From positions 1 to 23,070 of the IMG/VR virus record IMGVR_UViG_3300013087_000007: 23,070 bases of DNA, one strand, 5' to 3'. Position numbers and translations under genes: made by a program. Below the pieces are notes generated by a model, which saw only the letters and a program-made list of their open reading frames with translations, was not told the DNA's origin and did no database searches. The stretch comes from a virus. Position 1 is the first letter of the stretch. Each line of letters opens with the position of its first letter. Shown here one piece after another: positions 1 through 18,834 of this stretch.

Positions 1-539
1 GCCTTAGAGGCTGCTGAAGTCGCTGTAGCAGGAGTAGCCGGAAGATTCCGAAGGTCCAGACCCTGAGCAGTCCAAAAGTTAGTAGAAGTGCTTGTGTCTT
101 TTGGGAGGTACTGACCCCCGGTTGTCACTAGTGTGCTTTGTTCCTTTGCTTCTTGGACCAAGTGAATCATGGCTTTGAGGGCCAAGTTCAGTTGTTCAGC
201 GTTCAGCACTTCGGTGTTGAAAAACTCAAGAACATTGTCCTTAAAAGTGGACAATTTGTTTGGAGTAACTCGTTGAATTCTGATTGCTGACCCAGCCACA
301 ATAGTCGAGTTACTAGCAATAGTGACTACAGCAGAGGACGAAATAGGAAGTTCATTTAGAATCCAATATGGATCGCCAAACTTACTGGGAGATCCGTAAG
401 GAATCTTTGCGTTGTTTACATAGACCTCAAGAAAGTCACGGTCGATGTACCCATCAATTCCCCCATTAGCATCGAACACCTTATAGGTGTGGTTGCTATT
501 TGGGCCGGGGGCCACATACTCGACATAACTGTTGGGCAT
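1..539 (-). CDS. Tail fibre protein, T7 gp17-like N-terminal domain (partial, cut by left edge)
   Basis: The first 179 codons of the tail fibre are present and the rest lies beyond the left edge. The fibre's N-terminal domain attaches it to the tail tube while the missing distal part would bind the host surface. The translation begins MPNSYVEYVAPGPNSN. It contains GGIDGYIDRDFLEVYVNN near residues 28-42 and IRIQRVTPNKLSTFKDN near residues 87-103, followed by a helical stretch ending LVQEAKE. This is the pattern of the T7 gp17 N-terminal family, where T7 has an equivalent IEIRRVT...LVDFTDGS...EEARD run. The ATG is preceded by AAGGA eight bases upstream and follows the gp16-like gene directly. 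Base composition is noticeably AT-richer (about 42% G+C in the lines counted) than the capsid-side genes. Family assignment is strong; host specificity cannot be judged. Confidence 0.9.
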   Translation of the reverse strand, partial: MPNSYVEYVAPGPNSNHTYKVFDANGGIDGYIDRDFLEVYVNNAKIPYGSPSKFGDPYWILNELPISSSAVVTIASNSTIVAGSAIRIQRVTPNKLSTFKDNVLEFFNTEVLNAEQLNLALKAMIHLVQEAKEQSTLVTTGGQYLPKDTSTSTNFWTAQGLDLRNLPATPATATSAASK

Positions 540-556
540 TTTTTAGGTCCTTAGAT

Positions 557-3500
557 TCAGTTTGATGTGCGTGGCTGCTGCTTACTGAGGTTGTACTCCT
601 CGGCAATCTCCTGCTCACCAATGTTCAGGTACTGCTTGAGGAGCGGAAAGTTCTGCCCCGGGATCAGGCTGCGGCCTGCATGGAGCGTCTTGGTGGTAAA
701 CTCTCGGCGTATATCCAGATCCAATGGCTTGCCAATCAAGGCCCCACGGGCATCGTTTAGGACAGTACCGATATTTCGCAACTGGGTCTCACCGGGGAAG
801 CCGTACCAGTCCAGCCCAGAGTACCTATAGGGGGCAAAGAGCGGATCCTTGCTACCTAGGCCCCACATAGCGTCCCCGGCCTTGGTCAGCAGGAACATCT
901 CAGACGGCCCTGCAATGGCCCCACGGACAAAGCCCTCGACAGACAACAACTCTTCCATCTTCCGGGCCTTTTCGTAGTTCCTAGCCTTCTTATATGACCA
1001 CCAGTCTGCGTAGTTACGGCCATATCCAATCAGGCCAGCAAGGACCATCGTAGCGGTCACTTCCTTGGCCACTTGAAGACCACCACCGCCCTTGACACGG
1101 CCAGCATTCTGGATCAGGAAGTTGTCGATACCCTTAAGGTTGAAGGTGCTGAACTGAGTCAACAGACGGCCCCACCAAGTGAAGGCCAACTTGTGGAAGT
1201 CACCCCGCGTAGGCACATCCTGAATACGGGTACGAACCATGCGGTCCACCATGACCTTCAGTTCGGCCATCTTGGGTCCAGCCATGTTCTTGATGTTGAC
1301 CACACGGTCACCCAAGATCCCAGCCCTAGTCTCCGCATTCTCGGCTACCCAAGCAGCCAGAGCCCGATACTGATCAGGTTCAAGACCCAAGGTACGGATG
1401 GTTGCATCATCAAAGCCCTTGGTTCCCACCCCACGACCCACCTCATACAGGTGTTGAATGGTTGTGGCAGCAGTCAACTGCTGAGTCATACTGGTGATCG
1501 GAGCAAGACCTGAGATGTCAGACATCAGGTTGCTTGCACCTCGGATGGTCTTGGCAAATGGTCCAGAGTACGAGGCATCCCCAAGGGGATCCATGAACAC
1601 TCGACGCATACGGTCAGTCGATGGGTGGAACCAAGAATCCAAGAATGAGGCAAAGTTCTGACCCTCACGATCAAGGTTCTTGAAGTTGGTCACCATCTCC
1701 ATGACCACGGGCAACTGACGGATCGTGTTACGAACACCAACAGTACCCACGATACGAGCAATTTCACTAAAGGCTGCAAGACCGAACTGACCACCAGTAG
1801 TCAGGTAGCCATACTGCATGAACAACGACATAGCCCGGTCACCAAACTTAGGTGCCCCAGAGTAGATCGGTTCATACCGCAGGGCAGCAATGACCTCGCG
1901 CAGGCCCTCTTCTGCTCCCTGTTCAATGGATCCTCCGGTATCCCTAGCGTTGGCAAACATCTCTTCGATGGTGTCAACCTTCAGGGGTTCTTGGATCTCA
2001 GTACCGTCATCCAGAACCTTCTTCGGACCCTTGAAGCCGTTAGCAGCCAAGGACTCGTTGTAGGCATTGATCAGCCGACGCTCATTGACTGCCCCCATCA
2101 CCGAAGTGATATACTTTTTGAATACCTTGGGAAGATCGTCATCAAACAGATCGTCCAGAGCCAACGAGGTCTTCCCATTGCCCAATAGGTCTGTACCCGT
2201 GACGATCTCGGTGCTTTCATCCAATAGGATGCGGGAGCGACCAAAGGGAGTCTTGCTGCCCACCTTAGCCTTCAGAGGACCAAGGAGATCACCAAGGGCT
2301 TCAACCAGTTCCTGATCCTGAGAACTCATCGGGCGGTTCTCGGTATTCTTGGCGATGGAGATCAGACGATCCGTGAAGGCCACAGCAGCCTGACGAGTAT
2401 CGCCTTCAAAGACCTCTTCAACCCCATCAATAACGACCTTACGACCGTTCTTGTTGATGGCCTGTTCAATCAGATCCTGAAGAGCCTTGGTTCCTTCTGG
2501 ACTGACAGCAAGGTCTCGGATCAGATCAAATCGCCACAGACGGGGCATATAGTTACGCACCGCTGACTGAGTAAAGCCCGGGAGACCAGCCTCAAAGGCC
2601 AAGTTGTGAACCTTCTGGAAGATCTCTTGGAAGCCCTTGGCGGTGTCATTCACAGCAGCAACAGAGTCATCAAAGACCCCAGAGCGCAACTGCTTGGCCA
2701 CGCGACGGTTGAAGTCCTGACGAATAGCCTTGTTGCCAAAGGCAAACCGTAGGTTGTCTACCAAGCCCACCGCATCTGCGGGAACATCTGACACCCCACC
2801 CCCAGAGGCAAACCGCAAGTATCCGTTACGGTAACCACGCAGGAAAGCAAACATGGAGGCATGAAGGGCCTGAGAGCCTGCCTCAAAGATGGTGTACTTG
2901 GCGGCTGCTCCGGTAGCACGACGAGCGTTAAAAGCCATAGAGGCAATCAGACGCACCGCAGGGTTGTTGGACTCCATAGCCCGGGCCGCTTGATTCAACA
3001 GAGGAGAGATCAGAGGGATGCGTTCGGTAAGGTAAGCAGTCAACTGCTTTGGAATACCTTCGCCCCAAGTGCCGTTGCCACCAGTTCCCGTTGTGGGTGG
3101 CGTAGTTCCTCCTGCTCCACCACTCAAAGCAGGACCACCAGCAGCCCCAGAAACCGCCCTAGCCGCGCTCTTGGCTCCCAACTTGGCCAACACGCTCTCG
3201 GGCAGCGTAATGGGCTTCTTGGGCCTAGCGGCTGCACGACCTTGGCTACGGGCAGAGCCCACAGAGACATCCTGAGCCCTACGGTCGATGATCTCAATCA
3301 CCTTGGCCCGACGAGCATTGGAGTCCAACACAGTACGACCCTTGGCATTGACCCGGGTAGGGGGATTGGCAGCAATGGCTTGTAGTTCGTCAATGACCTC
3401 ACTAACAACTTGGCGATTCACGGTACCGCCACGGGTACGAATCTCTTCAAGAACCGTAAAGATCAAAGATTGCGGTGCTGCCGGATCTGCGCCATAGCGT

Positions 3501-5209
3501 CCTGTATTGAAGTACTTCCAAGTCTCGTCGATAAGGTCTTCTCGTTGAGCAAGAGCAACTGCTCTCCCATCTGCCGAACCGATGACTGCCCTAGCACCTT
3601 GTGGACGCAACTTTGATGCAACTTCTGGACCAAGTTCTCTACCGAGTTCTGCCCAGAAAACAGAGTTAAATCTAAAGCCAGTACCGCCAGATCGATGGGC
3701 AGCAGCCATAGCCCTAAAAATTGCAGAGAAAACTTGGACTGTAGGCTGAACTCCTGTAGCCAAAGATATTTCAAATGCAGCGGCAACAACTGGATTACGC
3801 GCAGGCACCCCAGATCGTCGTGCTGCCTGTCCCGCCCCTGCCGCCCTTGGCTGTACTGCTGGAACCGGATTCAGTAGAATAAATTCTGGACCATCAGGAC
3901 CCATAAAAGTTACGGAGTCGTAACCTCTTTTTTGGGCCTCAGTAATGAGATCGTCCATTGAAGCCGATTGCGGCAGCCCAAGCATTGTCTTTGCTTCTGT
4001 CCAAGTTTTAGCGGTCAGTAGTTTTTGTGGTACAAATTCAATAGACCTCTTTGTTCCACCTTCACCAAACGCTTCGGCAAGTTCTTCGACTGGAGTCCAA
4101 AAAGTGCCGCCTTGTGTGGCCGATTGTTTGTTGGTAGTTGGCGATTCTCCACGGAACAGTCGGATCGGCTTTGGCGGCTCAAAGAGTTCTTGAGGAAGCG
4201 CATCCCATTCTGCCTTAGCCGCAGTAGCAGCCGTATCAATCGCTCCGCTAGTAGCCTCAGCCCCATGAAGTAAGGTCTGATCCACATAAGCCGCAGACTG
4301 GAAGGGGAATGGTGTGTAATTGATTGTGTACCCACCCGGAAGTTCCACTTGACGGGTTTGGTACAGGGCTTCAGCAGCAGCCTCAACCTGATCGGCAGCA
4401 AAGGTTCGACCAAAGACTGCCCCACCAAGGACTCCCGCTACCCCAGCCGACATGGTCAGGTTGAAGGCTACCTCACCAAAGGACGGGTCATAGTTAGGGT
4501 CAATACCCTGCCGAGCAATCTGGTAGACAACCTCTTCCCCAGCCCCAAGAGCAGCCCAACGGGCCGCAAGGCCAGTCCTAGACAGGCTAGCCACGGCTTC
4601 CGTGGCGGCTTGGGCCGCAGTCTGAACTCTATTGCGCCCATATACCCGGTAGGCTGCACGGCCAGCCAAGGTGGTCCTAGTGCCCAATCCGGCCAAAGCC
4701 AAGGGCTCTGCCAGCATCCCACCAAGGGTCATGGCTCCTAGGTCAGCGACCATACCCGTGGCATAACCCAAGCCTGCGGCTTGTGCTTCGGGGGTGCCAC
4801 GCTTGACAAACAAGACCCGATCAAGGAACTCATTGTAGGTCCGGGCTCCAAGCACATACTGCCACTTGGCGGGATCAATGGTGTTCAACTTCTCAATGAT
4901 GCCTGTCCGGTTGTTCCCCATGCTGTGAGAAGCAGGAGAAAGTGGACTGAGGTCATCAATATCAGTTTCAAAGTTCAGAGGATCATTTGATTCTCCACTC
5001 AAGTAATCGTAGGCACCTTCTGCGGCCTGAATAGTGGCAGATCCAAGTGCCGTCTGAGCGACCCCTGACAAGTAGCGATCAATGTACGACTCGGTGATCT
5101 CAAGGATGTCCGGGTCATACACCGGAGCCTCCGCAAGAGCCTGCCGTTCAGCAGCAAGTTCTTCAGGAGTCTTGGCAAGGATTGGACTGGAAAAATAAAA
5201 GTCTGGCAT
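557..5209 (-). CDS. Internal virion core protein, T7 gp16-like, with candidate ADP-ribosyltransferase-like domain
   Basis: This 1550-residue protein occupies the gp16 position, between the gp15 analogue and the tail fibre. In T7, gp16 (1318 residues) is ejected into the cell and helps form the envelope channel that draws in the genome. Visible features are Gly/Ala-rich hydrophobic stretches at about 147-176 and 245-271, which could enter a membrane. A candidate ADP-ribosyltransferase-like segment spans about 349-449. A Gly/Ala/Thr/Pro low-complexity linker lies at about 683-716. A long conserved-looking C-terminal half ends in a motif with LIPGQNFPLLKQYLN. No N-terminal lytic transglycosylase signature is visible, unlike T7 gp16. 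The ART-like stretch is AT-richer (about 49% G+C over 3841-4140) than flanking parts (line 4561 is about 72%). The start lies three bases after the upstream stop and its ribosome binding site is weak. Role by position and C-terminus is fairly sure. Confidence 0.85.
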   Translation of the reverse strand: MPDFYFSSPILAKTPEELAAERQALAEAPVYDPDILEITESYIDRYLSGVAQTALGSATIQAAEGAYDYLSGESNDPLNFETDIDDLSPLSPASHSMGNNRTGIIEKLNTIDPAKWQYVLGARTYNEFLDRVLFVKRGTPEAQAAGLGYATGMVADLGAMTLGGMLAEPLALAGLGTRTTLAGRAAYRVYGRNRVQTAAQAATEAVASLSRTGLAARWAALGAGEEVVYQIARQGIDPNYDPSFGEVAFNLTMSAGVAGVLGGAVFGRTFAADQVEAAAEALYQTRQVELPGGYTINYTPFPFQSAAYVDQTLLHGAEATSGAIDTAATAAKAEWDALPQELFEPPKPIRLFRGESPTTNKQSATQGGTFWTPVEELAEAFGEGGTKRSIEFVPQKLLTAKTWTEAKTMLGLPQSASMDDLITEAQKRGYDSVTFMGPDGPEFILLNPVPAVQPRAAGAGQAARRSGVPARNPVVAAAFEISLATGVQPTVQVFSAIFRAMAAAHRSGGTGFRFNSVFWAELGRELGPEVASKLRPQGARAVIGSADGRAVALAQREDLIDETWKYFNTGRYGADPAAPQSLIFTVLEEIRTRGGTVNRQVVSEVIDELQAIAANPPTRVNAKGRTVLDSNARRAKVIEIIDRRAQDVSVGSARSQGRAAARPKKPITLPESVLAKLGAKSAARAVSGAAGGPALSGGAGGTTPPTTGTGGNGTWGEGIPKQLTAYLTERIPLISPLLNQAARAMESNNPAVRLIASMAFNARRATGAAAKYTIFEAGSQALHASMFAFLRGYRNGYLRFASGGGVSDVPADAVGLVDNLRFAFGNKAIRQDFNRRVAKQLRSGVFDDSVAAVNDTAKGFQEIFQKVHNLAFEAGLPGFTQSAVRNYMPRLWRFDLIRDLAVSPEGTKALQDLIEQAINKNGRKVVIDGVEEVFEGDTRQAAVAFTDRLISIAKNTENRPMSSQDQELVEALGDLLGPLKAKVGSKTPFGRSRILLDESTEIVTGTDLLGNGKTSLALDDLFDDDLPKVFKKYITSVMGAVNERRLINAYNESLAANGFKGPKKVLDDGTEIQEPLKVDTIEEMFANARDTGGSIEQGAEEGLREVIAALRYEPIYSGAPKFGDRAMSLFMQYGYLTTGGQFGLAAFSEIARIVGTVGVRNTIRQLPVVMEMVTNFKNLDREGQNFASFLDSWFHPSTDRMRRVFMDPLGDASYSGPFAKTIRGASNLMSDISGLAPITSMTQQLTAATTIQHLYEVGRGVGTKGFDDATIRTLGLEPDQYRALAAWVAENAETRAGILGDRVVNIKNMAGPKMAELKVMVDRMVRTRIQDVPTRGDFHKLAFTWWGRLLTQFSTFNLKGIDNFLIQNAGRVKGGGGLQVAKEVTATMVLAGLIGYGRNYADWWSYKKARNYEKARKMEELLSVEGFVRGAIAGPSEMFLLTKAGDAMWGLGSKDPLFAPYRYSGLDWYGFPGETQLRNIGTVLNDARGALIGKPLDLDIRREFTTKTLHAGRSLIPGQNFPLLKQYLNIGEQEIAEEYNLSKQQPRTSN
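3866..4165 (-). other. Candidate ADP-ribosyltransferase-like domain inside the gp16-like protein
   Basis: Residues about 349-449 read like a compact ART fold. There is a first-strand RLFRGES with R353, then GGTFWT (367-372) followed by an ELAEAFGEGG helix, then a strand RSIEFVP. A helix leads into RGYDSVTF (428-435), and the last strand is GPEFILLNP with E442 just before the hydrophobic run. The order R-G, G-T-F-x-T, G-Y-D-x-V, E-x-hydrophobic-N-P is what many phage and toxin ART-like domains show. The Arg, Thr and Glu are plausible counterparts of the R-S/T-E triad. This is motif reading only. The catalytic Glu normally sits in an ExE or QxE pair, and here the residue two before it is Gly, so activity is uncertain and the domain could be a degenerate structural relic. 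Confidence 0.5.
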
Positions 5210-5212
5210 GGT

Positions 5213-8020
5213 TTATAGTCCGCTTCCAACCTTATCACGCCACAACCAACCCTGCGCTTCTTGCCGAGTTTTAAACCGAAGGACGCTATTGGGGGATGTC
5301 GGTCTACGCAGCATGATCGCCCTGTCCAACGCCGCCTCAAAGACCTTGCGACCTTCAGGCGTTGCCGGAGAAGTAATGTCATTGATGGTGTAGTACTTGT
5401 CGATTACAGGCTGGCCCCGTTCTCGGACACCAAAGATGGCTTCACCAGCCCCCGGGGGCGAAAGGACAACCAAGGTAGCGTTGGGGTTCTTGGGGAAGTT
5501 AACATTCAGCCAAGCCTCAACATAGTCTTCGTTCTTGTATGGACCCAAGGCTGACCTAGGCAGAATACTGCCACGGACGAAGACATGGGTTTCAAGTATC
5601 TTGTCCAAGGTTCGGGTTGCCGCAAAACGACCCATCATACCATTTTCCTGAAATTGCTGACTGTATTCACTTCGGAAAACATAGTCGAGATAGGGAATCG
5701 CATCGGGATCCAACTGCCCATTACCAGACGCTGCGACTGCGTTGTGCAAGTCCGTTACGACTCCTTCAATTTGCTCTTTCGTTTGTTTGTTGTTTCCATA
5801 AATGTCCATCCAACCCAAAGGATTTTGCAAATCAATTGGAGTACCAAAGGGGGCATTCAGCGACATCCGCTGCGAAATATCCTGAGCGACAGCCTTAATG
5901 TTTTCTCCCTTACGAACCCGCAGCACAGCATAATCCATCATCTGGGTCAGGGCTTTACCGTTATCGCCCGTAGGCATGATTGCGCTGATGCTTTGGTTGT
6001 TTTCCTGAGCAAACTTGTAAGCCATAATGAACTGCTCGGTGGCAGGCATGGGCTGATTAGTTTCAACAACCTGTGGGTTCAACTCTTGCAGAACATCCTT
6101 ATACAACTGGTCTAGGCGGCTAGGATCATCGAATCGTGCAGCCACGGACATCTGCATAGCCAGACCCTTGTAACGCATTTGCGCCTTATACTTAGCAACT
6201 TCTTCGTTGTCACTAGGATCCGGGGCAAACCCTGCTGTCCATTGATCGATAGAATCCTGAAGTTTCTGAGAAGCCCGAAGACGGTACTCCTTGTACTTAG
6301 TCTCGGTAGACACCATGCCCAGAGTTCTGGTGGCAAACTGATCGATCTGGGTAGCGTACTTGCCAAAGTCTGGGATGCTAGAGTCATTCGGAGCAGCAGC
6401 CTTTGTGAGAGCCGTCTGCATATCAGGGAGGATTCCATCACCATTGCCTGTACCGTTCCACAGGACATTGGTGGCCGCGATTGCAGCGTTGAGTTGTCGA
6501 GTTTCTTCTGCATCGTCAAACACACGGTCAAACACTCCTACTGCGCGGAAGAACTGCTCTGGTGGTAGGTTGAGGTCTACAATCTTCTTAAGCAACGCTG
6601 CTCGGTCTGGGTTAGTCTGGGCTTCGTTCATAACAGAATAAACTGCGTTAGATTGAGCCTCTTGAAATGCCTTTTCCTGTTGAGCCTTGGCGCGGTTGTA
6701 GTCCCCTTCGTACCGCGTAAGCAAGCCATCAATTCCCTTGGCTCCGGTGTACCTTGAGCCTATTTCCCGGACTTTTGCTAAACCCTCCTCGTAAGACAAA
6801 TATCCGCCAAGGACTTGAGGAAGAATTTCTTTATCCATAACCTCAGTAACCCGACCAAACTCAGCATTTGTAAGTCGATCTGAGTTTTGTCTCATTTCTG
6901 GAAGAGCGCGTAGATACGCATTAGCAACTTCCTTGGACTGAATAAGTTTACCAGTTCCTCCTCTAAGGTTTGCAAGAAGGAACATAGCCGCCATAGGATT
7001 GTCACCTGATTTCATTTCTTCAAGCAAGGTATTAGCAACAGCCATATTTACTTGATGACTCGGCGCACCGCTAAGAGCAAACTCATCCAACTTCTTCTGA
7101 GCCGCGTTAAGTATATCCCGTGTTGGTTGCCCACCGGGAACGGGCGTTTGTTGGTTGGAGTTCTCCAGCATCGCGTTCAGGTGTACCTTCATTTCGCCGT
7201 AGAGCGCGCTCTGATCTTCCAAATCCTTCATGGATAGCCTTCCCCTAGTCTTCATTGCTACGGCTTCAATCTCGGCCATCCTATCCTCAAGTTCTTCTAC
7301 CTTTTTCGACGCTTCGTCATACTTTCGACGGCGTTCAGCGTTGGCCTCATCCTCTGGTGGGGTCTCCGCTACTTCAAACGGAACAGGCAATGAGGCCAAA
7401 TCGTCTACAGCCAGAATGACCGCAGCAGAAGCACCATCAAAGATCTTCTTATTGTTATGCTCAATGACCCGTTGTTCATGCTTGACTTGCATTGCCCCAA
7501 CAAAGGGATTGAACGACTCATAGAACGAGCGGCTCATGTACGAGGCATCGCCAATGAACTGGTTTACATTCTGGGTGTACTGGTAGGCAAAGGCATCGAA
7601 GCCCCGGGGGTCATCAAGGAAGTTGGGGTCTTCTTGGATCTTCTTTTCCAACAGGGTCTCAAAGTTAGCCCGGGCCTTCATCCCCTCCATAGCCCCGCTA
7701 GCCTTCTGGGCACCAATGGCAAACCACGGGTTCTCCGTGGGCTTGATCTGACCTTCTGAAACCAGTTGCTGATAAGAGCGACGGCTCTGGTTGACCAGAT
7801 CCTGACCCTTCAGAATCTCTTCTTCGTTGGACTGCTGCTTCAAGGCTCCTGCAAGTTTGGCCGCGCTGACTGACAGGTTACTAAAGGCATCAGCAAACTG
7901 TAGAGCATTCTGGACTGCCTGTTGGTCGTACAGTTCTGCTGCTACAGCATTCTGGTTGGGAGCAACAAAGGTGCTGACGGGACGAGCCGTGACATCAAGA
8001 GAAGGTCGTGATTTAGCCAT
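5213..8020 (-). CDS. Internal virion core protein, T7 gp15-like
   Basis: The 935-residue product sits between the gp14 and gp16 analogues, the T7 position of gp15 (747 residues). That protein is ejected and forms the periplasmic part of the DNA-translocation channel. The sequence is mostly helical and hydrophilic, with charged runs at about 230-265 that could form a coiled coil. No signal peptide or enzyme motif was recognised. The N-terminus begins MAKSRPSLDVTARPVSTFVAP. The start codon overlaps the upstream stop as TAATG, so translation is probably coupled to the gp14 analogue. The middle of the gene (about 5640-7020) is AT-rich in the lines counted (38-50% G+C), while its 5' part (7561-7740) is 57-63%. 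This suggests a mosaic origin. Assignment rests mainly on position, size and neighbours. Confidence 0.82.
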   Translation of the reverse strand: MAKSRPSLDVTARPVSTFVAPNQNAVAAELYDQQAVQNALQFADAFSNLSVSAAKLAGALKQQSNEEEILKGQDLVNQSRRSYQQLVSEGQIKPTENPWFAIGAQKASGAMEGMKARANFETLLEKKIQEDPNFLDDPRGFDAFAYQYTQNVNQFIGDASYMSRSFYESFNPFVGAMQVKHEQRVIEHNNKKIFDGASAAVILAVDDLASLPVPFEVAETPPEDEANAERRRKYDEASKKVEELEDRMAEIEAVAMKTRGRLSMKDLEDQSALYGEMKVHLNAMLENSNQQTPVPGGQPTRDILNAAQKKLDEFALSGAPSHQVNMAVANTLLEEMKSGDNPMAAMFLLANLRGGTGKLIQSKEVANAYLRALPEMRQNSDRLTNAEFGRVTEVMDKEILPQVLGGYLSYEEGLAKVREIGSRYTGAKGIDGLLTRYEGDYNRAKAQQEKAFQEAQSNAVYSVMNEAQTNPDRAALLKKIVDLNLPPEQFFRAVGVFDRVFDDAEETRQLNAAIAATNVLWNGTGNGDGILPDMQTALTKAAAPNDSSIPDFGKYATQIDQFATRTLGMVSTETKYKEYRLRASQKLQDSIDQWTAGFAPDPSDNEEVAKYKAQMRYKGLAMQMSVAARFDDPSRLDQLYKDVLQELNPQVVETNQPMPATEQFIMAYKFAQENNQSISAIMPTGDNGKALTQMMDYAVLRVRKGENIKAVAQDISQRMSLNAPFGTPIDLQNPLGWMDIYGNNKQTKEQIEGVVTDLHNAVAASGNGQLDPDAIPYLDYVFRSEYSQQFQENGMMGRFAATRTLDKILETHVFVRGSILPRSALGPYKNEDYVEAWLNVNFPKNPNATLVVLSPPGAGEAIFGVRERGQPVIDKYYTINDITSPATPEGRKVFEAALDRAIMLRRPTSPNSVLRFKTRQEAQGWLWRDKVGSGL

Positions 8021-8691
8021 TAGGGTTGTCCGCGAAGACCGGGAATAGTAGAACCTAGACCCGGAGGTCGAGGAGGGGTTGTGGTCTGATTAGCCTGAGC
8101 CGCCACGCCACTAGGACTTCGGTACGAATTCAGGGCACCATAGGTACTGATACCCGTAGTGATACCATTGATCAGCGGGAGCCATGGGCTCGGGTTAGCC
8201 GCAGGAGGCAGCGGAGCAGGGTAGCCACCATTGATGGCACTCTGACCCCGGGCATAGATCGCTTCGATCTCCACGCCCATCTGAGTCCGCATATTGCTGA
8301 TGTTACGGGCAGCGGCTGATTCATACTCCATGACCTCACGGTCAAACTGGGCATGGAGCAGATCGACGCTACGACCTTCTACGCCTGCTGAAGCCGCGAC
8401 CGTGCTGTAGGTAGCCTTGGACTCCCGGGCGTTCCTAGAGATCCCCTCTAGTTCTTGACGAACCGCTAGTTGTCGCTCCGTATTCTGACGAACAATTTGG
8501 TCAACTTGGGAACCGACATCCTGAATCACCGCCTCAGCGTTCTGGACATACTGCTTGTTTCCTGCAACACCAAGACGGGCTCGGTAAGAGTTCTGTTCCT
8601 TAGCGGCTTTGTTCTGTGCATCCGCCTGAGCAGCAGCAGATGCGGCACCGATTGCTACTGAAGCAATGATGCCACCAGTTGGATCACACAT
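8020..8691 (-). CDS. Internal virion protein, T7 gp14-like
   Basis: This 223-residue protein matches the T7 gp14 plan (196 residues). It starts MCDPTGGIIASVAIGAASAAAQ, where T7 has a Met-Cys start and a small hydrophobic Ala/Gly/Ile segment. A long Ala/Gln/Glu-rich helix follows, with SAGVEGRSVDLLHAQFDREV around residues 100-120. T7 has a similar GESMLEGSSMDRI...GQF run there. In T7, gp14 is ejected and forms the outer-membrane pore of the translocation channel. The C-terminal 60 residues are Pro/Gly/Ser-rich and probably flexible. The ATG lies inside the last codons of the gp13 analogue (8-base overlap) and has a good GAGGG ribosome binding site six bases upstream. The downstream gene starts on its stop codon. 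Confidence 0.88.
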   Translation of the reverse strand: MCDPTGGIIASVAIGAASAAAQADAQNKAAKEQNSYRARLGVAGNKQYVQNAEAVIQDVGSQVDQIVRQNTERQLAVRQELEGISRNARESKATYSTVAASAGVEGRSVDLLHAQFDREVMEYESAAARNISNMRTQMGVEIEAIYARGQSAINGGYPAPLPPAANPSPWLPLINGITTGISTYGALNSYRSPSGVAAQANQTTTPPRPPGLGSTIPGLRGQP

Positions 8692-9148
8692 GACTTACCC
8701 TCACAAACTCTATGAATGGAAGAGAGAGAACCCCGTGTTCGGGGACTACTCGGACAAATTTAAAACCAAGCCACTCCAGCCATCTAATGTGGACTGTGTT
8801 GCGTTGGTCAATCAGGTTGTACAGAATTGGACTGCGGGTCTGCAAGTAGTCGCACCACTTACGAGACTTGCGAAGAAAATCCATTCGATACTTGTACAGT
8901 TCATTGGACCCAAGCATCCAGACCATGGAGCAGATACCCTCGGTACGGTACCCAAACATGGCCAAGGGTAGATGGCTCGTATATGATACGATTGTGAAGC
9001 ACTCCGTGGAGTGATCCAAGGCGTACTCCAAGGCCCTAGCCGGGGATCGCCCACTACAGGCAAAGACCTCATCGATGTCTGCCTGCCGCATATCTTGGGC
9101 AATTACAGGGATGTCACAGTATCGGGTCCAGCGGACATCAACTAGCAT
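8684..9148 (-). CDS. T7 gp13-like internal virion/assembly protein with GNAT-like fold
   Basis: The 154-residue product lies between tail tube B and the gp14 analogue, exactly as gene 13 does in T7 (138 residues). It carries RNTVHIRWLEWLGFKFV near residues 115-131. T7 gp13 has NTSHIRFLKTIGAVF at the same point, and this N...(F/W)L...GF pattern is the end of an acetyltransferase-like (GNAT) fold. In T7, gp13 is needed for correct internal virion protein assembly. Whether any acyl-transfer activity remains is unknown, and no clear acetyl-CoA P-loop (Q/RxxGxG/A) was seen. The start has no convincing Shine-Dalgarno sequence, so translation may depend on the preceding gene, which ends 14 bases upstream. 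Confidence 0.82.
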   Translation of the reverse strand: MLVDVRWTRYCDIPVIAQDMRQADIDEVFACSGRSPARALEYALDHSTECFTIVSYTSHLPLAMFGYRTEGICSMVWMLGSNELYKYRMDFLRKSRKWCDYLQTRSPILYNLIDQRNTVHIRWLEWLGFKFVRVVPEHGVLSLPFIEFVRVSHV

Positions 9149-9162
9149 TTGAATTCAGGATA

Positions 9163-12129
9163 TCACATACTGCTGGATCGTGTAGTAAACTCAGCCTCAA
9201 TTTCACCAGACAAGATCTTGCAGGGCAAGAACGAAGTGCTGATGATTGAGATCGTGATGTTGTCGTTCTTGCTGAAGATGGGTACACGGAACTGACCAGT
9301 CTTCAAGAAAGCCTCCCCGACAAGGCTAGAGCCTAGGATATCCCCGGCAAACTCGTACTCGTAGGAGGCACCATCAGGGGTTTCCGTGGTGACCTTGAAG
9401 TACCCAGTCTCAGCGAACTGGAGAATCATGTTATGGATCTGGTATCGACCACCCAACAGCGCAGGCATATTCTGGCCACGCTTCAGGTACTGAGTCGAGA
9501 AGGTGTACTTCATTTCATACGGGGCCCCAAACCACAGGTCCTCATCTGAGTAATTACCAGATAGGACAACAGTCCCGGCGGTATTGTTCCCACCAGTATT
9601 GGCTCCCTCAATGAGAACAGCCGCAGTACCTGAGACAATGGGAATGGAGTTGCCTTCGTCGTTGACAACCTTACTGATCCCTGCCGCGTAATCCATGGGA
9701 TACGGAAGCGTAAAGGTTGTTTGGTTCGTTCCGCTACCCACATAGGTCCCACCAGTCAGTCTGGTACGGAAGTCCAAATGGGTCATCCAGTCGTTGATGG
9801 GGCTGTCGTTAAGGCCAGAACCCATGCGGACCTTGACTAGGACTGGAATGAAAGAGTTAGCCAGAGGAGGAATCAGTCCTGTCTTACGGCGTACCGACAG
9901 AGCCACATACATATCCGACTCCACAAACCCTACCCAAATGGGTTCAGCAGAAGCCGATCCATGGGCATCCTGATCTACAAAGATCTTGGAGGAGTCAGAG
10001 AAGTCCCATTCAACCCACGCCGACTGGGCTCGTTCGTTGTTGATCGCAAGGTACCGATAGATATACAACTTGCGGTTGGCAATGACGGCCACGATATTAT
10101 CGTGCGTTGAAGCCGCCAAAGATCCCGGCGATCCGGCGATGTACCGGGAGACATTAGTAGTCAGATCATTAGCGAGGTATGAGCCATCAAGCGCAGGCTG
10201 TGGCACCAATTCTCGCATACCCACATAGCCACCGTTGTTGTAGGTAAAGAAAATTGAGTTGGCTGAAGGCACCGGGCGGCACAGGTTGGCTTGATTCTCA
10301 TAGTCAGCCGCAGGAGTAATCGACACATTCTTAGGAGTAAAGGTCTCCCCAGTACGCAGAACCGATTGGTTCGTTGGGGTCCACAAGATCAGATCCCGGT
10401 TGAACGGAATCGCAGCGTGGATGACGCCTGACTTGGAAGATGACGCGGCGATATCAATCGAATCTGTATCCAAGAGATCTAGGACGGTAGTTCTGAAGAA
10501 GTTAAAGAACTGCCCCGTTTCTGAGAAGATGATGTTCTCCCCAGAGATAGCCCCAAGGCGACCTTGGAAGTACACAAGACCATTTATCTTTGGTCCTGTT
10601 GAGTAGTAAGTACTGCCGATAAAGGAGGGTGTTGGATTGGTGTCTTCATCCCCAACCAAGCGGTCAGCCCACAAGTAACTAGCAGCGTTTGGAACACCAG
10701 TAGCGGCTGCACCGTCAGCAGTCTTAACAACAAAGCCACCAGTATCGGTTCTGATGACCAGAATAGGCATGGTTGATGGACTGAGTTTGTACTTGAGTCC
10801 CGGAGCCACGGTTTCGACCCAAACGCCCCGTGAGAAGTCCCCGTCTTCTGCTTCAAACTTGACCCAGTAATCATCATAGGATGATTCGGGAACACCAGCC
10901 ACTTTGACCATGTAGCCGTGGGGTGCCGTTGGGGGGAGATCCTCAAAGCGTTCTACCGTATCCCGAATAACCACAAGACCGTCACCCGCAAAGTCATCCT
11001 CAACAGCGATATCAAAGTTTAGTGGAGTAGTGGTTCGGGCTTTGATCCAGATAACACCATCACGGACACGGGTGTTACTGAAGCGGTCTGTCTCAAAGGG
11101 AGCAGTAGCGGCACCACTTGCCGGGTCGGTGAAGTTGCCATCGATACCATCCCTAGGCCCGATGTAGCCAGAACCACGCCCGTTAACCAGACTCTCAGCG
11201 GTGTGATTGGTACCAATCTCGCCACTACTGTCGGCTTTGATACGAACCTGTGCGCCATTAACGCCGTTGTTATTGGGGATATGAAGTAGTACACCAGTAT
11301 CCGTGCCAGTATCCCCGGGACCCTGAACGGACAGGGGCTGCTCCAGACCGACAAAGTCGGTAACCAAGCGCACATCACTTACTCTGTTGTTGGCCCCGGC
11401 ATAAGTGATATAGGCTTGAGGATATACATCAGCCTTCACACCTTTGGAATAAGTGAGTTGCACAGGACCATATACCGCTCCAGCGGTAGTTCCGTTACTT
11501 GTTCCATCAACCGCAACCGCAACAGATCGCGTGGTGTGCTTATATGTGTACACCCGGTTATCGCTACTAGTCAGAATGATGGTGTGTTCACGCCCAAAGT
11601 TGGCCTGCTTGATCCATACCAAAGCGTTCTGATTGTAATTGCTGGGATTCTGCGCCGCGGTGTCGTTGGTATACAGGGGTTGCGTCTTAGCGTTAGCGAC
11701 AAAAGTAACATCACCAATGGTAACCGCTGAACGCTGTGCCGGAGAATCAACAGCACCGAACAAACTGTTAGGCGATGTATACAAACTCTTAGGGGTGTTC
11801 TTAATCAGATCATGGATGCCGTAGCGACCAGTCTTGTCGATATACAACAGGTACTTTTCCTGTTCATCGCGCTCAATCAAGTGGAAGAACAGCGAATCAG
11901 TAGGATCGTCAAACCAAAACTTGGTTGCTTGGTTGCCCGTTGGGGTGGTACCCGGAACCCCACGATACAACTGGGTAACATATTCAGCCGGGGGACGCTT
12001 GATCAAGCCCTCAACAGGCGAGGGGATAGCATTAACAATCTCTTCCGCTTCGTTGTTCTTGCGAATAGCAGCAGGCTGTTGGCTCACGCCACCAATGAAG
12101 TTTGGAATCGAAGTGTTAATCAGCGGCAT
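9163..12129 (-). CDS. Tail tubular protein B (nozzle), T7 gp12-like
   Basis: The N-terminus, with NFIGGVSQQPAAIR (residues 10-23) and EGLIKRPPAEYV (about 39-50), is diagnostic. T7 gp12 has GGISQQP and EGLQKRPP at the same places. The protein forms the tail nozzle below the gp11 ring and helps carry the fibres and DNA channel. At 988 residues it is about 190 longer than T7 gp12. The extra length probably lies in the Gly/Asp/Thr-rich region around residues 270-400, which reads like an inserted beta-rich domain. The rest is beta-rich, with many Ser/Thr/Asn as expected for a phage tail protein. The start ATG overlaps the tail tube A stop as TGATG, so the two nozzle/tube proteins are probably coupled in translation. 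Confidence 0.95.
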   Translation of the reverse strand: MPLINTSIPNFIGGVSQQPAAIRKNNEAEEIVNAIPSPVEGLIKRPPAEYVTQLYRGVPGTTPTGNQATKFWFDDPTDSLFFHLIERDEQEKYLLYIDKTGRYGIHDLIKNTPKSLYTSPNSLFGAVDSPAQRSAVTIGDVTFVANAKTQPLYTNDTAAQNPSNYNQNALVWIKQANFGREHTIILTSSDNRVYTYKHTTRSVAVAVDGTSNGTTAGAVYGPVQLTYSKGVKADVYPQAYITYAGANNRVSDVRLVTDFVGLEQPLSVQGPGDTGTDTGVLLHIPNNNGVNGAQVRIKADSSGEIGTNHTAESLVNGRGSGYIGPRDGIDGNFTDPASGAATAPFETDRFSNTRVRDGVIWIKARTTTPLNFDIAVEDDFAGDGLVVIRDTVERFEDLPPTAPHGYMVKVAGVPESSYDDYWVKFEAEDGDFSRGVWVETVAPGLKYKLSPSTMPILVIRTDTGGFVVKTADGAAATGVPNAASYLWADRLVGDEDTNPTPSFIGSTYYSTGPKINGLVYFQGRLGAISGENIIFSETGQFFNFFRTTVLDLLDTDSIDIAASSSKSGVIHAAIPFNRDLILWTPTNQSVLRTGETFTPKNVSITPAADYENQANLCRPVPSANSIFFTYNNGGYVGMRELVPQPALDGSYLANDLTTNVSRYIAGSPGSLAASTHDNIVAVIANRKLYIYRYLAINNERAQSAWVEWDFSDSSKIFVDQDAHGSASAEPIWVGFVESDMYVALSVRRKTGLIPPLANSFIPVLVKVRMGSGLNDSPINDWMTHLDFRTRLTGGTYVGSGTNQTTFTLPYPMDYAAGISKVVNDEGNSIPIVSGTAAVLIEGANTGGNNTAGTVVLSGNYSDEDLWFGAPYEMKYTFSTQYLKRGQNMPALLGGRYQIHNMILQFAETGYFKVTTETPDGASYEYEFAGDILGSSLVGEAFLKTGQFRVPIFSKNDNITISIISTSFLPCKILSGEIEAEFTTRSSSM

Positions 12130-14059: not shown

Positions 14060-14305
14060 TTAAGGAGCGTCCGCCGGGGTTTCCCCGGGTTCTGATATGT
14101 CCGCTGCCCACCAACCCGCAGGGATTTCGACACGATTAGTTGACTTGATCTTCGTTCCGTCCTGCTGAACCACAAAGACATGAGCCTTTACAGGTTCCGC
14201 AAGTTGCACCGGAGTCCCGTGAGGGACCAGAAGCACGGAGGTTCCGCACCCGCTGACGAATCCGAGAGCGAATGCCCCCAGCATCAGGATCAGCATCTTT
14301 CGCAT
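14060..14305 (-). CDS. Small lipoprotein, probable lysis/envelope protein
   Basis: Starting at the ATG at 14305, the 81-residue product has a short basic start (MRK), a hydrophobic segment and a lipobox VSGC with the lipidated cysteine at residue 20. The mature part of about 60 residues begins CGTSVLLVPHGTPVQLAEPV and contains VEIPAGWW. Small phage lipoproteins with a V-P-H-G...EPVK...PAGW pattern are common, but their role is not established. An outer-membrane spanin or superinfection-exclusion role is possible given the holin-like gene just upstream. The chosen start has an AAGGA site five bases upstream; an in-frame start at 14332 lacks one. The gene overlaps an out-of-frame reading frame that begins at 14375. 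Confidence 0.7.
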   Translation of the reverse strand: MRKMLILMLGAFALGFVSGCGTSVLLVPHGTPVQLAEPVKAHVFVVQQDGTKIKSTNRVEIPAGWWAADISEPGETPADAP

Positions 14306-14375
14306 ATGTGTCCTTAGATGCAAAGCGTTCAATGTAGTGAAAGATGGCCGTGACCAGTTGGTACAGCCAGCCCAT
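14136..14375 (-). CDS. Possible overlapping small protein between holin-like and lipoprotein genes
   Basis: An open frame of 79 codons starts with ATG on the holin-like stop codon (TAATG) and would otherwise leave a 69-base gap in a tightly packed stretch. Its first 13 residues, MGWLYQLVTAIFH, are amphipathic to hydrophobic, followed by YIERFASKDTYAKDADPDAGG. The C-terminal 50 residues (Arg/Gly/Cys-rich) are encoded opposite the lipoprotein frame and look like a by-product. The arrangement recalls the overlapping Rz/Rz1 spanin genes, but no true transmembrane helix plus coiled coil is visible, so an Rz role is not supported by the sequence alone. It could instead be only a coupling leader. 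Confidence 0.35.
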   Translation of the reverse strand: MGWLYQLVTAIFHYIERFASKDTYAKDADPDAGGIRSRIRQRVRNLRASGPSRDSGATCGTCKGSCLCGSAGRNEDQVN

Positions 14376-18315: not shown

Positions 18316-18518
18316 TACTCGCCCTCGCTATTCAGGGCTGCTTCCTTGGCGAATGAGATCAGACCAAGAGTGCCGTGCATGGAGCCCTTGGCAGTCAGGG
18401 TGTACGAGTCATCCTTGGAGGTCTTGGACTGGAACCCGATGAAGACCATCTCGTCAAAGCGGTTCTTCAGTTCCTTCAGGATCTCGCCCGTACCCATGAA
18501 TTCAATTGGAGTAGACAC
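18315..18518 (-). CDS. Small protein of unknown function
   Basis: The 67-residue product starts at a GTG with GAGG seven bases upstream, and overlaps the end of the LAGLIDADG-type gene by 17 bases. It has an acidic N-terminal helix (GEILKELKNRFDEMVFIGF) and a later stretch SYTLTAKGSMHGTLGLISFAKEAAL. That form, a strand, a Gly-rich turn and an amphipathic helix ending in AK, is common in short proteins of tailed phages with no assigned role. I do not recognise a function. Tight coupling on both sides supports that it is expressed with the replication genes. Confidence 0.65.
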   Translation of the reverse strand: MSTPIEFMGTGEILKELKNRFDEMVFIGFQSKTSKDDSYTLTAKGSMHGTLGLISFAKEAALNSEGE

Positions 18519-18834
18519 TTTTGAGCCTCTTAAGGGTTTTGATGTAGTGTGAACGGATCATCGGATCCTTGGACTGACGAACGAGAAACAAGGCCACAAT
18601 CTGTGGGTACTTGATCACGGAGTACCGGGCTACAGCCAATAGGTACTTGATAGCCTTGTCTCCGCAGAGGGTCCAGACAAACACCTCGCCACCCTTCTCG
18701 CGGATACTGCCGCCCCACTTGCCGCGCATCAAGGACAGCACACCAAAGTGTTTGTTTGTGACTTCAACACATGGAGTACCGTTCCACCGAACGCAGCCCT
18801 CGCCATCCAATAGGCCAGCAGCAAATGCGTTCAA
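18502..18834 (-). CDS. Small LAGLIDADG-type homing endonuclease-like protein, probable TTG start
   Basis: The likely product of 110 residues begins MNAFAAGLLDGEGCVRW, which contains the LAGLIDADG helix (AAGLLDGEG) with E12 at the catalytic acid position. It is followed by strands, VFVWTLCGDKAIKYLLAV, and YSVIKYPQIVALFL. The W..xGxxA..yL and K.pQ pattern is the rest of the core of this fold. It has one motif only, so it would act as a homodimer. It is short compared with I-CreI (163 residues) and may be degenerate. The TTG at 18834 shares bases with the polymerase TGA and has GGGGAG at ideal spacing. An upstream ATG at 18885 would overlap polymerase by 55 bases. Such genes often sit beside the gene whose allele they target, here DNA polymerase. 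Confidence 0.7.
   Translation of the reverse strand: MNAFAAGLLDGEGCVRWNGTPCVEVTNKHFGVLSLMRGKWGGSIREKGGEVFVWTLCGDKAIKYLLAVARYSVIKYPQIVALFLVRQSKDPMIRSHYIKTLKRLKSVYSN

Follow-up and report, generated by a model that had tools for sequence, protein, structure and literature searches.

The window analysed here, a 23,070-nucleotide stretch of viral DNA, encodes a gp16-type ejection protein with a segment that alignments identify as a discrete in-frame insert, at a position where related phages hold different inserts or none. Sequence and structure comparisons indicate that the insert is probably a small ADP-ribosyltransferase (ART)-fold domain, hereafter the window domain, distantly similar to ART-PolyVal domains and with R353, T369/T372 and E442 as candidate key residues. 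The whole account, in which an ART-fold cargo occupies a swappable gp16 slot and is predicted to act on host targets early, stands in our judgement just on the probable side.

Identity of the carrier protein

Family homology and gene order identify the carrier as a T7 gp16-type ejection protein (Table 1). In a PHROGs search, residues 111-1537 aligned to positions 272-1228 of the phrog_342 profile (E 9.4e-52), and an hhalign profile comparison with the gp16 set of T7, SP6, CRP-125 and RHEph01 matched the carrier to T7 gp16 residues 512-1306 (probability 97.8%, E 1.3e-12). Comparison with T7, CRP-125 and RHEph01 revealed the gene order portal, scaffold, capsid, gp11, gp12, gp13, gp14, gp15, gp16, tail fibre, in which gp15 is assigned by position only and gp13 and the tail fibre fall below the Pfam cut-off. 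A Pfam search of the 1550-aa ORF gave no match, and with the phrog_342 match starting at profile position 272 there was no sign of a T7-type N-terminal transglycosylase. The whole carrier protein matched nothing in phages by tblastn (1e-5) or in viral contigs by pattern scan, and a profile built from nine gp16 proteins likewise retrieved nothing from the PDB up to E 0.1. Using tblastn at E up to 1, the last 680 residues retrieved 58 phage records (best E 0.1), many of them named internal virion protein.

Table 1. Features of the window discussed in the text
Feature	Position	Strand	Basis or remark
gp17-like N-terminal part of the tail fibre, truncated at the window end	3..539	(-)	PF03906 E 4.4e-5, just below cut-off; adjoins gp16 as in T7
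gp16-type internal virion (ejection) protein	557..5209	(-)	ORF open over 1550 aa; phrog_342
Cargo insert, residues 343-471, between LPQEL and NPVVAAAFE	3797..4183	(-)	Absent in L002 (alignments)
Candidate ADP-ribosyltransferase-fold domain, residues 347-449	3863..4171	(-)	Sequence and structure comparisons
E442, candidate catalytic glutamate, last predicted strand	3884..3886	(-)	Aligned to E in L007, L008 and L055; putative role
T369-F370-W371-T372, candidate strand-2 S/T position	4094..4105	(-)	Strand at model residues 24-26, low confidence; putative role
R353, candidate NAD-binding arginine, end of predicted strand 1	4151..4153	(-)	Strand at model residues 5-9, low confidence; putative role
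Protein at gp15 position, 935 aa	5213..8020	(-)	Position only; no Pfam or PHROG match
gp14-like internal virion protein	8020..8691	(-)	PF24072 E 1.4e-21
gp13-like protein	8684..9148	(-)	PF11090 E 9.3e-5, below Pfam cut-off
Tail tubular protein B (gp12-like)	9163..12129	(-)	phrog_457 E 3.6e-179

An insertion slot with variable contents

Relatives, designated by L numbers, were found with tail tubular protein B as the query. The closest of them (L002) is 78% identical to the carrier outside the slot, and the insert is cleanly missing. Among ten close proteins, 4/10 have different inserts (that of the window, an ART-PolyVal-like domain, a SprT-like domain and one unnamed) and 6/10 are empty; within this group, carriers with filled and empty slots are up to 98.6% identical elsewhere. 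Outside the slot, L018, L023 and L021 share 95.9-97.9% identity, but their slots contain an unnamed cargo, an ART-PolyVal-like cargo and nothing, respectively. L018 and L023 have short linkers in common with different cargos between them. The L023 cargo matched PF18760 (ART-PolyVal) with E 1.9e-6 and 29.1 bits, below the cut-off of 31.2, and the L014 cargo resembled SprT (SprT-like E 0.0014, NCBIfam SprT E 1.1e-4, both below cut-off). A second long insert, of no recognised kind, is present in L057, L059, L060 and L074. These results suggest that takeover enzymes in the delivery machinery are swappable by these phages.

For a slot census, 24 ORFs that duplicated another or lay within it were dropped, as were six distant proteins (L077-L082); L083 yielded no ORF that passed the search. 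Additions from 31 further loci were limited to the four on new contigs (L103, L109, L111, L115). Forty-five proteins were aligned, and nine with fewer than 200 residues left of the slot were kept out, leaving 36 fully covered proteins including that of the window. The slot is 165-347 aa long in 15/36 and 40-107 aa long in 21/36, counts that do not represent independent events because near-identical proteins were counted separately (e.g. L059/L060, L007/L008, L037/L040, L109/L111).

Two apparent relationships between cargos were rejected. L018 and L023 were linked by phmmer (E 3.4e-25), which was discounted because the compared slots included the shared flanks and linkers; the cores give z 2.1 (10/200 shuffles). 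L047 and L007 were linked in the census, and their cores give z -1.4. A DNA-pattern scan for further close relatives returned seven stretches, all on contigs already in the set. PF18760 matched only the L023 record among nine records behind the loci; its profile found no match in 58 genomes, an uninformative result given that the controls were equally silent, and a protein search of the same 58 genomes found none. By tblastn against phages, the L018 and L007 cargos had no match and the L023 cargo had one partial match (E 4e-3). An earlier sequence-only reading of this DNA did not recognise that the segment is one among alternative cargos that occupy the same position in different phages.

Position and composition of the motif series

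The sequence-only reading had placed a motif series in ART order at residues 349-449, and both order and place were confirmed. IRLFRGE begins at residue 349 (window position 4165), T369 and T372 lie within GGTFWTP, and E442 lies within GPEFILLNP. By itself, the motif series is no test against chance. The same reading put the G+C content of the segment, at about 49%, below that of its flanks. The 300 bp encoding residues 349-448 have 46.7% G+C (48-50% in a separate computation), a value within the bottom 0.7% of 300-bp windows across the gene (54.3% overall), and their third-position G+C of 36% is in the lowest 12%. The left and right flanks have 55.3% and 48.3% G+C, so the contrast is valid on the left only, the right flank also being low. 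Low G+C alone was rejected as a mark of a foreign insert, since the right flank is equally low.

Sequence and structural similarity to ARTs

No ART match to the window domain was obtained in Pfam, PHROGs, NCBIfam or PDB sequence searches. PF18760 did not match at E up to 10, which places the window domain outside that Pfam model. Direct comparison with the ART-PolyVal-like cargo of L023 gave z 3.9, with equal or better scores in 3/500 shuffles and in 0/200 in a repeat shuffle test; BLASTP of this single pair gave E 0.009. Against the L023 cargo the window domain scored 48, and the highest score among 464 control pieces, each of 183 aa and taken from other ORFs of the loci, was 46. Four of these control pieces reached z 4.0-4.2, near the window domain's own 4.2; related phages are the source of the pieces, not all of which are independent. 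The L047 cargo is as similar to the L023 cargo (z 3.7) as the window domain is.

In phages and plasmids, tblastn at E up to 10 matched the window domain only at E 1 or more, with none at E 0.01. Pattern scans of viral contigs did not find it with a pattern from P0002, and with patterns from alignments they matched only the contigs behind L007 and L008. A window-domain profile gave five weak matches in 368 genomes (best E 0.0019); inspection by eye of L122, L124, L125 and L126, which are among the weak matches, revealed no ART-like protein in frame over the middle of the locus.

R353, T369/T372 and E442 lie at the expected predicted strands, the first two sites in low-confidence parts of the model. 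Conservation of these residues in homologues had been suggested as a check, and the outcome was divided. E442 is kept in all three homologues that reach it (L007, L008, L055). L007 and L008, the only two homologues in which R353 could be checked, lack a counterpart of it; they are 98% alike and retain the second half of the domain. Because the searches yielded a single complete copy of the domain, residue conservation is not demonstrable. The window domain has no histidine; R353 lies in LFRGE, and the H-Y-D active site of ART-PolyVal is not found.

The structure of the window domain was predicted twice, the second time with the L023 row added to the alignment. The first model has pLDDT 62.1, with most of the first half below 50, and a secondary structure order of E-E-H-E-E-H-H-E-E. 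Among the listed PDB matches that start at residue 1, 6/13 are ARTs and 7/13 are not. Domain-spanning ART matches are MbcT (6fkg, Z 3.5), NatT (8qnl and 8qnq, 3.0), ParT (2.7) and the anti-CRISPR 6kyf (2.3), which we take to be AcrIF11; we assume the ART fold to be common to 6kyf, MbcT, NatT, ParT, tankyrase and PARP4. The seven others are three NRPS epimerization domains, two SHMT entries, MJ0236 and chalcone synthase (Z 2.1-3.0). The second AlphaFold model did not raise confidence (pLDDT 58.6). All six listed matches to it that start at residue 1 are ARTs (6kyf 4.0, NatT 3.8 and 3.7, MbcT 3.7, ParT 2.9 twice), and these are not independent evidence because the alignment held the L023 row. 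In a BFVD search of viral structures, proteins annotated as ART-PolyVal or PolyVal ADP-ribosyltransferase occupy ranks 2, 3, 14, 17 and 27 among the best 50 listed, with a MuF fusion at rank 6 and a vRNAP at rank 16. The best BFVD E is 4.7e-3, no Foldseek E is below 0.001, and Z is at most 4.0 across models. The predicted structures point both ways: the full-span ART and viral ART-PolyVal matches speak for the ART fold, the pLDDT values of 62 and 59 and the 7/13 non-ART matches against it. For the central claim of the sequence-only reading, an ART domain in an ejected gp16-like protein, the carrier type holds and weak lines of evidence agree on an ART; the fold is supported, not proved.

Alternative explanations and proposed function

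The insert could have an ART-derived fold that has lost catalysis or is degenerating, as a remnant or as structural padding within a gp16 loop that tolerates it. L007 and L008, which retain the second half and the glutamate without the arginine, would fit such decay, as would the short slots in 21/36 proteins and the failure of Pfam to recognise the window domain. However, the window copy presents the arginine, the strand-2 threonines and the glutamate in ART order at predicted strands, its reading frame is intact, and several different enzyme-like cargos at one spot argue for selection for function over drift. We consider a dead enzyme unlikely, and less likely still that the insert is some other small alpha/beta domain whose motif order is coincidental. 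The second half of the first model, which is the confident one (about residues 50-104), resembles ribokinase-like chains (Z up to 3.8), and these, like the other non-ART structure matches, presumably lack the ART fold. Together with the 7/13 non-ART matches and the modest similarity to L023, whose controls reach z 4.0-4.2 in 4/464 pieces, they would favour such a domain. Yet the ribokinase-like matches span only half of the domain, and the top full-span matches (6fkg, 8qnl, 8qnq) are ARTs, though one epimerization domain ties at Z 3.0. Furthermore, the best named viral structure matches are ART-PolyVal, and an ART-PolyVal-like domain occupies the same slot of a relative (L023).

It seems very improbable that the slot domain acts before or during ejection, by self-modification, control of gp16 refolding or periplasmic action, and not on cytoplasmic host targets. 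ART activity needs NAD, which is cytoplasmic, and the slot comes before the region that aligns with the cytoplasmic hub of T7. On the other side, the position of the slot relative to the membrane regions comes from a weak alignment, and T7 gp16 is described as having periplasmic as well as cytoplasmic parts (PMC8954989).

Under the preferred reading, an active ART-fold cargo in a swappable slot, gp16 would be packed in the core, exit via the portal and refold in the envelope, as in T7 (topology: PMC8954989). The insert would lie between a part that weakly matches the first T7 membrane region at its end and a part matching the cytoplasmic hub, a placement at the hub edge that would face it toward the cytoplasm and NAD; this cytoplasmic placement comes from a weak alignment (E 0.12, probability 0.5%). 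During the first minutes, ahead of phage gene expression, ADP-ribose would be attached to a host target (polymerase, defence protein or other early target), much like the action of T4 Alt. Slot contents would be exchanged by recombination in the flanking gp16 sequence. More broadly, the chances are about even that in this T7-like phage lineage gp16 is a general delivery vehicle with one dedicated slot at the cytoplasmic-hub edge, whose exchanged effectors (ART-like, ART-PolyVal-like, SprT-like metallopeptidase and several unnamed modules) modify host proteins or disarm defences within the first minutes, setting takeover specificity.

T7-like phages are usually pictured as taking over the host with proteins made after entry. 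If the account is correct, an effector in the ejection channel acts ahead of any phage gene being read, and a channel protein that squeezes through the narrow portal also brings an enzyme along. A large insert at this point of gp16 would then be a candidate early-takeover or anti-defence domain, and the swappable slot would therefore make such effectors easy to find.

Comparison with known systems

Virion-borne ARTs are already known. An ART in a T7-type core protein had been held not to be a described standard feature, and indeed no gp16-type ejection protein with an ART was found reported in the open-licence literature, though an earlier description elsewhere is possible. Neither a swappable effector slot in gp16 nor an internal virion protein combined with a polyvalent protein was found in that literature.

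T4 Alt is an ART inside the virion that is injected with the DNA and has an R-S-E active site (PMC5512222), for which R353, T369/T372 and E442 would be the counterparts in the same order. Alt is a separate protein, whereas the window domain is an insert in an ejection-channel protein, and Pfam and NCBIfam gave no sequence match to the Alt-type family.

ART-PolyVal polyvalent proteins likewise embed an ART domain in a large protein for which injection along with the DNA is predicted; their prototype is the N4-like vRNAP of Roseovarius Plymouth podovirus 1 (PMC5512222). ART-PolyVal supplies both the just-below-cut-off match in the slot of L023 and the best named structural matches of the window domain. 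The carriers differ, a vRNAP in the prototype and a T7 gp16-type ejection protein here, as do the candidate active sites, since section 9 of PMC5512222 gives the triad H-Y-D and the window domain has R instead of H. Polyvalent proteins are described as having several disparate enzyme domains per injected protein (PMC5512222). In contrast, no gp16 of the window, L014 or L023 has more than a single recognisable cargo, and L018 has none that is named; the variety lies between phages.

Homology of the carrier to T7 gp16 and SP6 gp37 covers the C-terminal 800 residues, and its place in the gene order is the same. T7 gp16 has an N-terminal transglycosylase (PMC8954989), whereas the carrier has no recognised one and holds other domains in an internal slot. 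According to the same source, the N-terminal lytic transglycosylase is not universal, being missing in P22-type proteins, and gp15-type proteins of K1E and K1-5 have lysozyme activity, a published case of a functional domain moved between ejection proteins (PMC8954989). In K1E and K1-5 the domain is a cell-wall enzyme for entry, whereas the gp16 cargos all sit at a single recurring internal position and some of them are predicted to be protein-modifying enzymes.

Genome and carrier protein

The window is a virus contig of 23,070 bases with its minus-strand genes in the T7-type order: primase-helicase, DNA polymerase A, exonuclease, portal, scaffold, capsid, tail tubes A and B, gp13-like, gp14-like, a gp15-position protein, gp16 and the start of a tail fibre. 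Identity to named phages is at most 53% for the portal and up to about 33% for tail tube B; two of the matched phages, CRP-125 and RHEph01, are Autographiviridae. Tail tube B has 988 aa compared with 793 positions in phrog_457 and about 850 in several relatives, which implies extra sequence there too. A small lipoprotein-like ORF (hydrophobic start plus cysteine) lies between the capsid and scaffold genes. A 127-aa ORF that overlaps the DNA polymerase gene at its end contains LLDGEGC, reminiscent of LAGLIDADG homing endonucleases, and had no Pfam match at E 0.01.

The carrier, a 1550-aa protein, was called gp16-like in the sequence-only reading. This is borne out by its match to phrog_342, "internal virion protein with endolysin domain" (E 9.4e-52), and by a carrier-family profile (19 members, 17 used) compared with the T7 gp16, SP6 gp37, CRP-125 and RHEph01 proteins (probability 97.8%, E 1.3e-12; residues 735-1530 = T7 512-1306). 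Despite "endolysin" in the PHROG name, the phrog_342 match starts only at profile position 272, and no transglycosylase was found in the carrier by Pfam.

Coordinates of features in the window and in related phage loci
Feature	Sequence	Position	Strand
Carrier ORF	window	557-5209	-
Tail tube B	window	9163-12129	-
Lipoprotein-like ORF	window	14060-14332	-
127-aa ORF	window	18502-18885	-
SprT-like cargo	L014	7362-8351	+
phrog_938 cargo	L047	6000-6614	+
FtsK gamma domain	L025	7348-7791	+

The slot and its cargos

The slot is the position where gp16-type proteins carry different inserts or none. Relatives were collected by three routes: tail tube B gave 25 loci, the gp16 alignment gave 57 in viral contigs and 1 in genomes, and the stretch right of the slot gave 31, four of them on new contigs. 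After duplicates and six distant proteins were dropped, 45 proteins including the window's were aligned, and 36/45 cover the slot fully. Its length is 165-347 aa in 15/36 and 40-107 aa in 21/36, near-identical proteins being counted apart. The closest relative found, L002, is 78.3% identical to the window protein outside the slot; the two DNAs are in register as far as GATGCGCTTCCT, then comes the window insert, and then register is regained. Among ten proteins mutually at least 60% identical outside the slot, 4 are filled and 6 short. L018, L023 and L021 share 95.9-97.9% identity there and hold an unrecognised cargo, an ART-PolyVal-like cargo and none, respectively. Filled L023 and empty L006 are 98.6% identical outside the slot. 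L018 and L023 have linkers in common on both sides of different cargos.

The L023 cargo matches ART-PolyVal (PF18760, E 1.9e-6, slightly under the Pfam cut-off). The L014 cargo, with an HEVVH motif, resembles SprT-like metallopeptidases (Pfam E 0.0014, NCBIfam 1.1e-4, both under cut-off). The L047 cargo matches a mid-profile part (positions 1303-1469, E 2e-22) of phrog_938, which is 2185 positions long and carries the name endolysin. The L018, L057-type and L069-type cargos had no significant family match. FtsK gamma is a DNA-motif-reading domain of chromosome translocases; in L025, a more distant gp16-type protein, it lies near the slot (PF09397, E 5.3e-22), in a kind of protein with a presumed role in DNA transport into the cell.

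About 140 residues past the slot, the gp16 ORFs of L057, L059, L060 and L074 have a second long insert (368-369 and 291 aa, versus about 71-142 in other proteins with that stretch), so these proteins may have a second cargo slot. Pfam gave nothing significant for the second insert of L057 and L074.

Sequence similarity of the window domain

The motif series attributed to an ART lies at carrier residues 349-449, as described. Its 300-bp stretch has 46.7% G+C versus 54.3% for the whole gene. The proposed drop below both flanks holds on the left (55.3%) but not on the right, which is also low (48.3%).

Relatives of the window domain occur in L007 and L008 (phmmer E 2.5e-8 and 3.6e-8 within the set of loci), and L055, which ends at a contig edge, has its last part (z 7.8). 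The window domain and the L023 cargo align colinearly from GGTFWT through EFILLNP with score 48 (z 3.9, 3/500 shuffles equal or better; BLASTP E 0.009). In a panel of 464 pieces from other ORFs the best score was 46. Because the best panel z values (4.2, 4.2, 4.1, 4.0) approach the 4.2 of this pair, the likeness is suggestive, not proof. Against the window domain, other cargos gave z -0.9 (L018) and 2.1 (L014) in one comparison, and -0.8 (L018), 2.5 (L014), 2.1 (L047), 0.3 (L057) and 0.3 (L069) in a second. The L023 and L047 cargos gave z 3.7 with each other, which means that the L047 cargo is likewise ART-like or that z values close to 4 are not unusual.

Predicted structure and candidate active site

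An AlphaFold2 model from an alignment of the window domain, L007 and L008 had pLDDT 62.1 and pTM 0.56, with the order E-E-H-E-E-H-H-E-E and model residues 9-47 under 50. Foldseek against the PDB ranked anti-CRISPR 6kyf first (E 0.05), followed mainly by kinases and other unrelated enzymes. Among the VIA-align matches listed, 13 begin at residue 1. Of these 6/13 are ART-superfamily (MbcT 6fkg 3.5, NatT 3.0 twice, ParT 2.7 and 2.6, 6kyf 2.3) and 7/13 are not (2.1-3.0: three NRPS epimerization domains, two SHMT entries, MJ0236 and chalcone synthase). The model's second half matched ribokinase-like chains, up to 3.8. None of the best 50 BFVD matches reached E <0.001. Ranks 2, 3, 14, 17 and 27 carry the names ART-PolyVal or PolyVal ADP-ribosyltransferase; rank 6 is a MuF fusion, 16 a vRNAP, 24 a large polyvalent protein, 34 RelA/SpoT, 45 a metallopeptidase and 50 an RNA polymerase fragment; the remainder, including rank 1, are uncharacterised or without a name.

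In a second model L023 was in the alignment, so its ART matches are not independent: the six listed from residue 1 are 6kyf 4.0, NatT 3.8 and 3.7, MbcT 3.7 and ParT 2.9 twice, with several tankyrases ranking after them. All of these PDB proteins have the ART fold. Viral structure matches were of the same kinds as before.

In the first model R353 is at the end of strand 1, T369 within strand 2 and T372 just behind it, all in low-confidence parts, and E442 is inside the last strand. Conservation of the proposed active site was partial: E442 aligns with E in L007, L008 and L055, but neither L007 nor L008 has a residue equivalent to R353. The L023 cargo has no E at the E442 position, which would fit another active-site type, the H-Y-D described in section 9 of PMC5512222. 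An ART fold is slightly more likely than not for the window domain, which we do not count as an ART-PolyVal member.

Proposed membrane placement and known systems

The review PMC8954989 describes T7 gp16 as exiting the virion, with residues 1-156 (the transglycosylase) and 157-228 as parts of the periplasmic tunnel, putative membrane regions at 243-410 and 1119-1290, and a cytoplasmic hub to which 411-1118 are assigned. Carrier residues 209-264 weakly match T7 gp16 340-412 (E 0.12), colinear with the strong 735-1530 match. If this weak match is true, the slot, at residue 340, would come after the first membrane region, where the hub begins, and its cargo would face the cytoplasm.

The sequence-only reading held that the pairing of an ART with a T7-type core protein is not known to be a standard feature, and among the open-licence papers listed in literature searches none reported a gp16-type protein with an ART. 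Neither PMC5512222 nor PMC9503650 uses the terms gp16 or "internal virion". Virion-borne ARTs are already known from T4 Alt and from N4-like vRNAP polyvalent proteins (PMC5512222), and domain swapping between ejection proteins is already known for cell-wall enzymes (PMC8954989).
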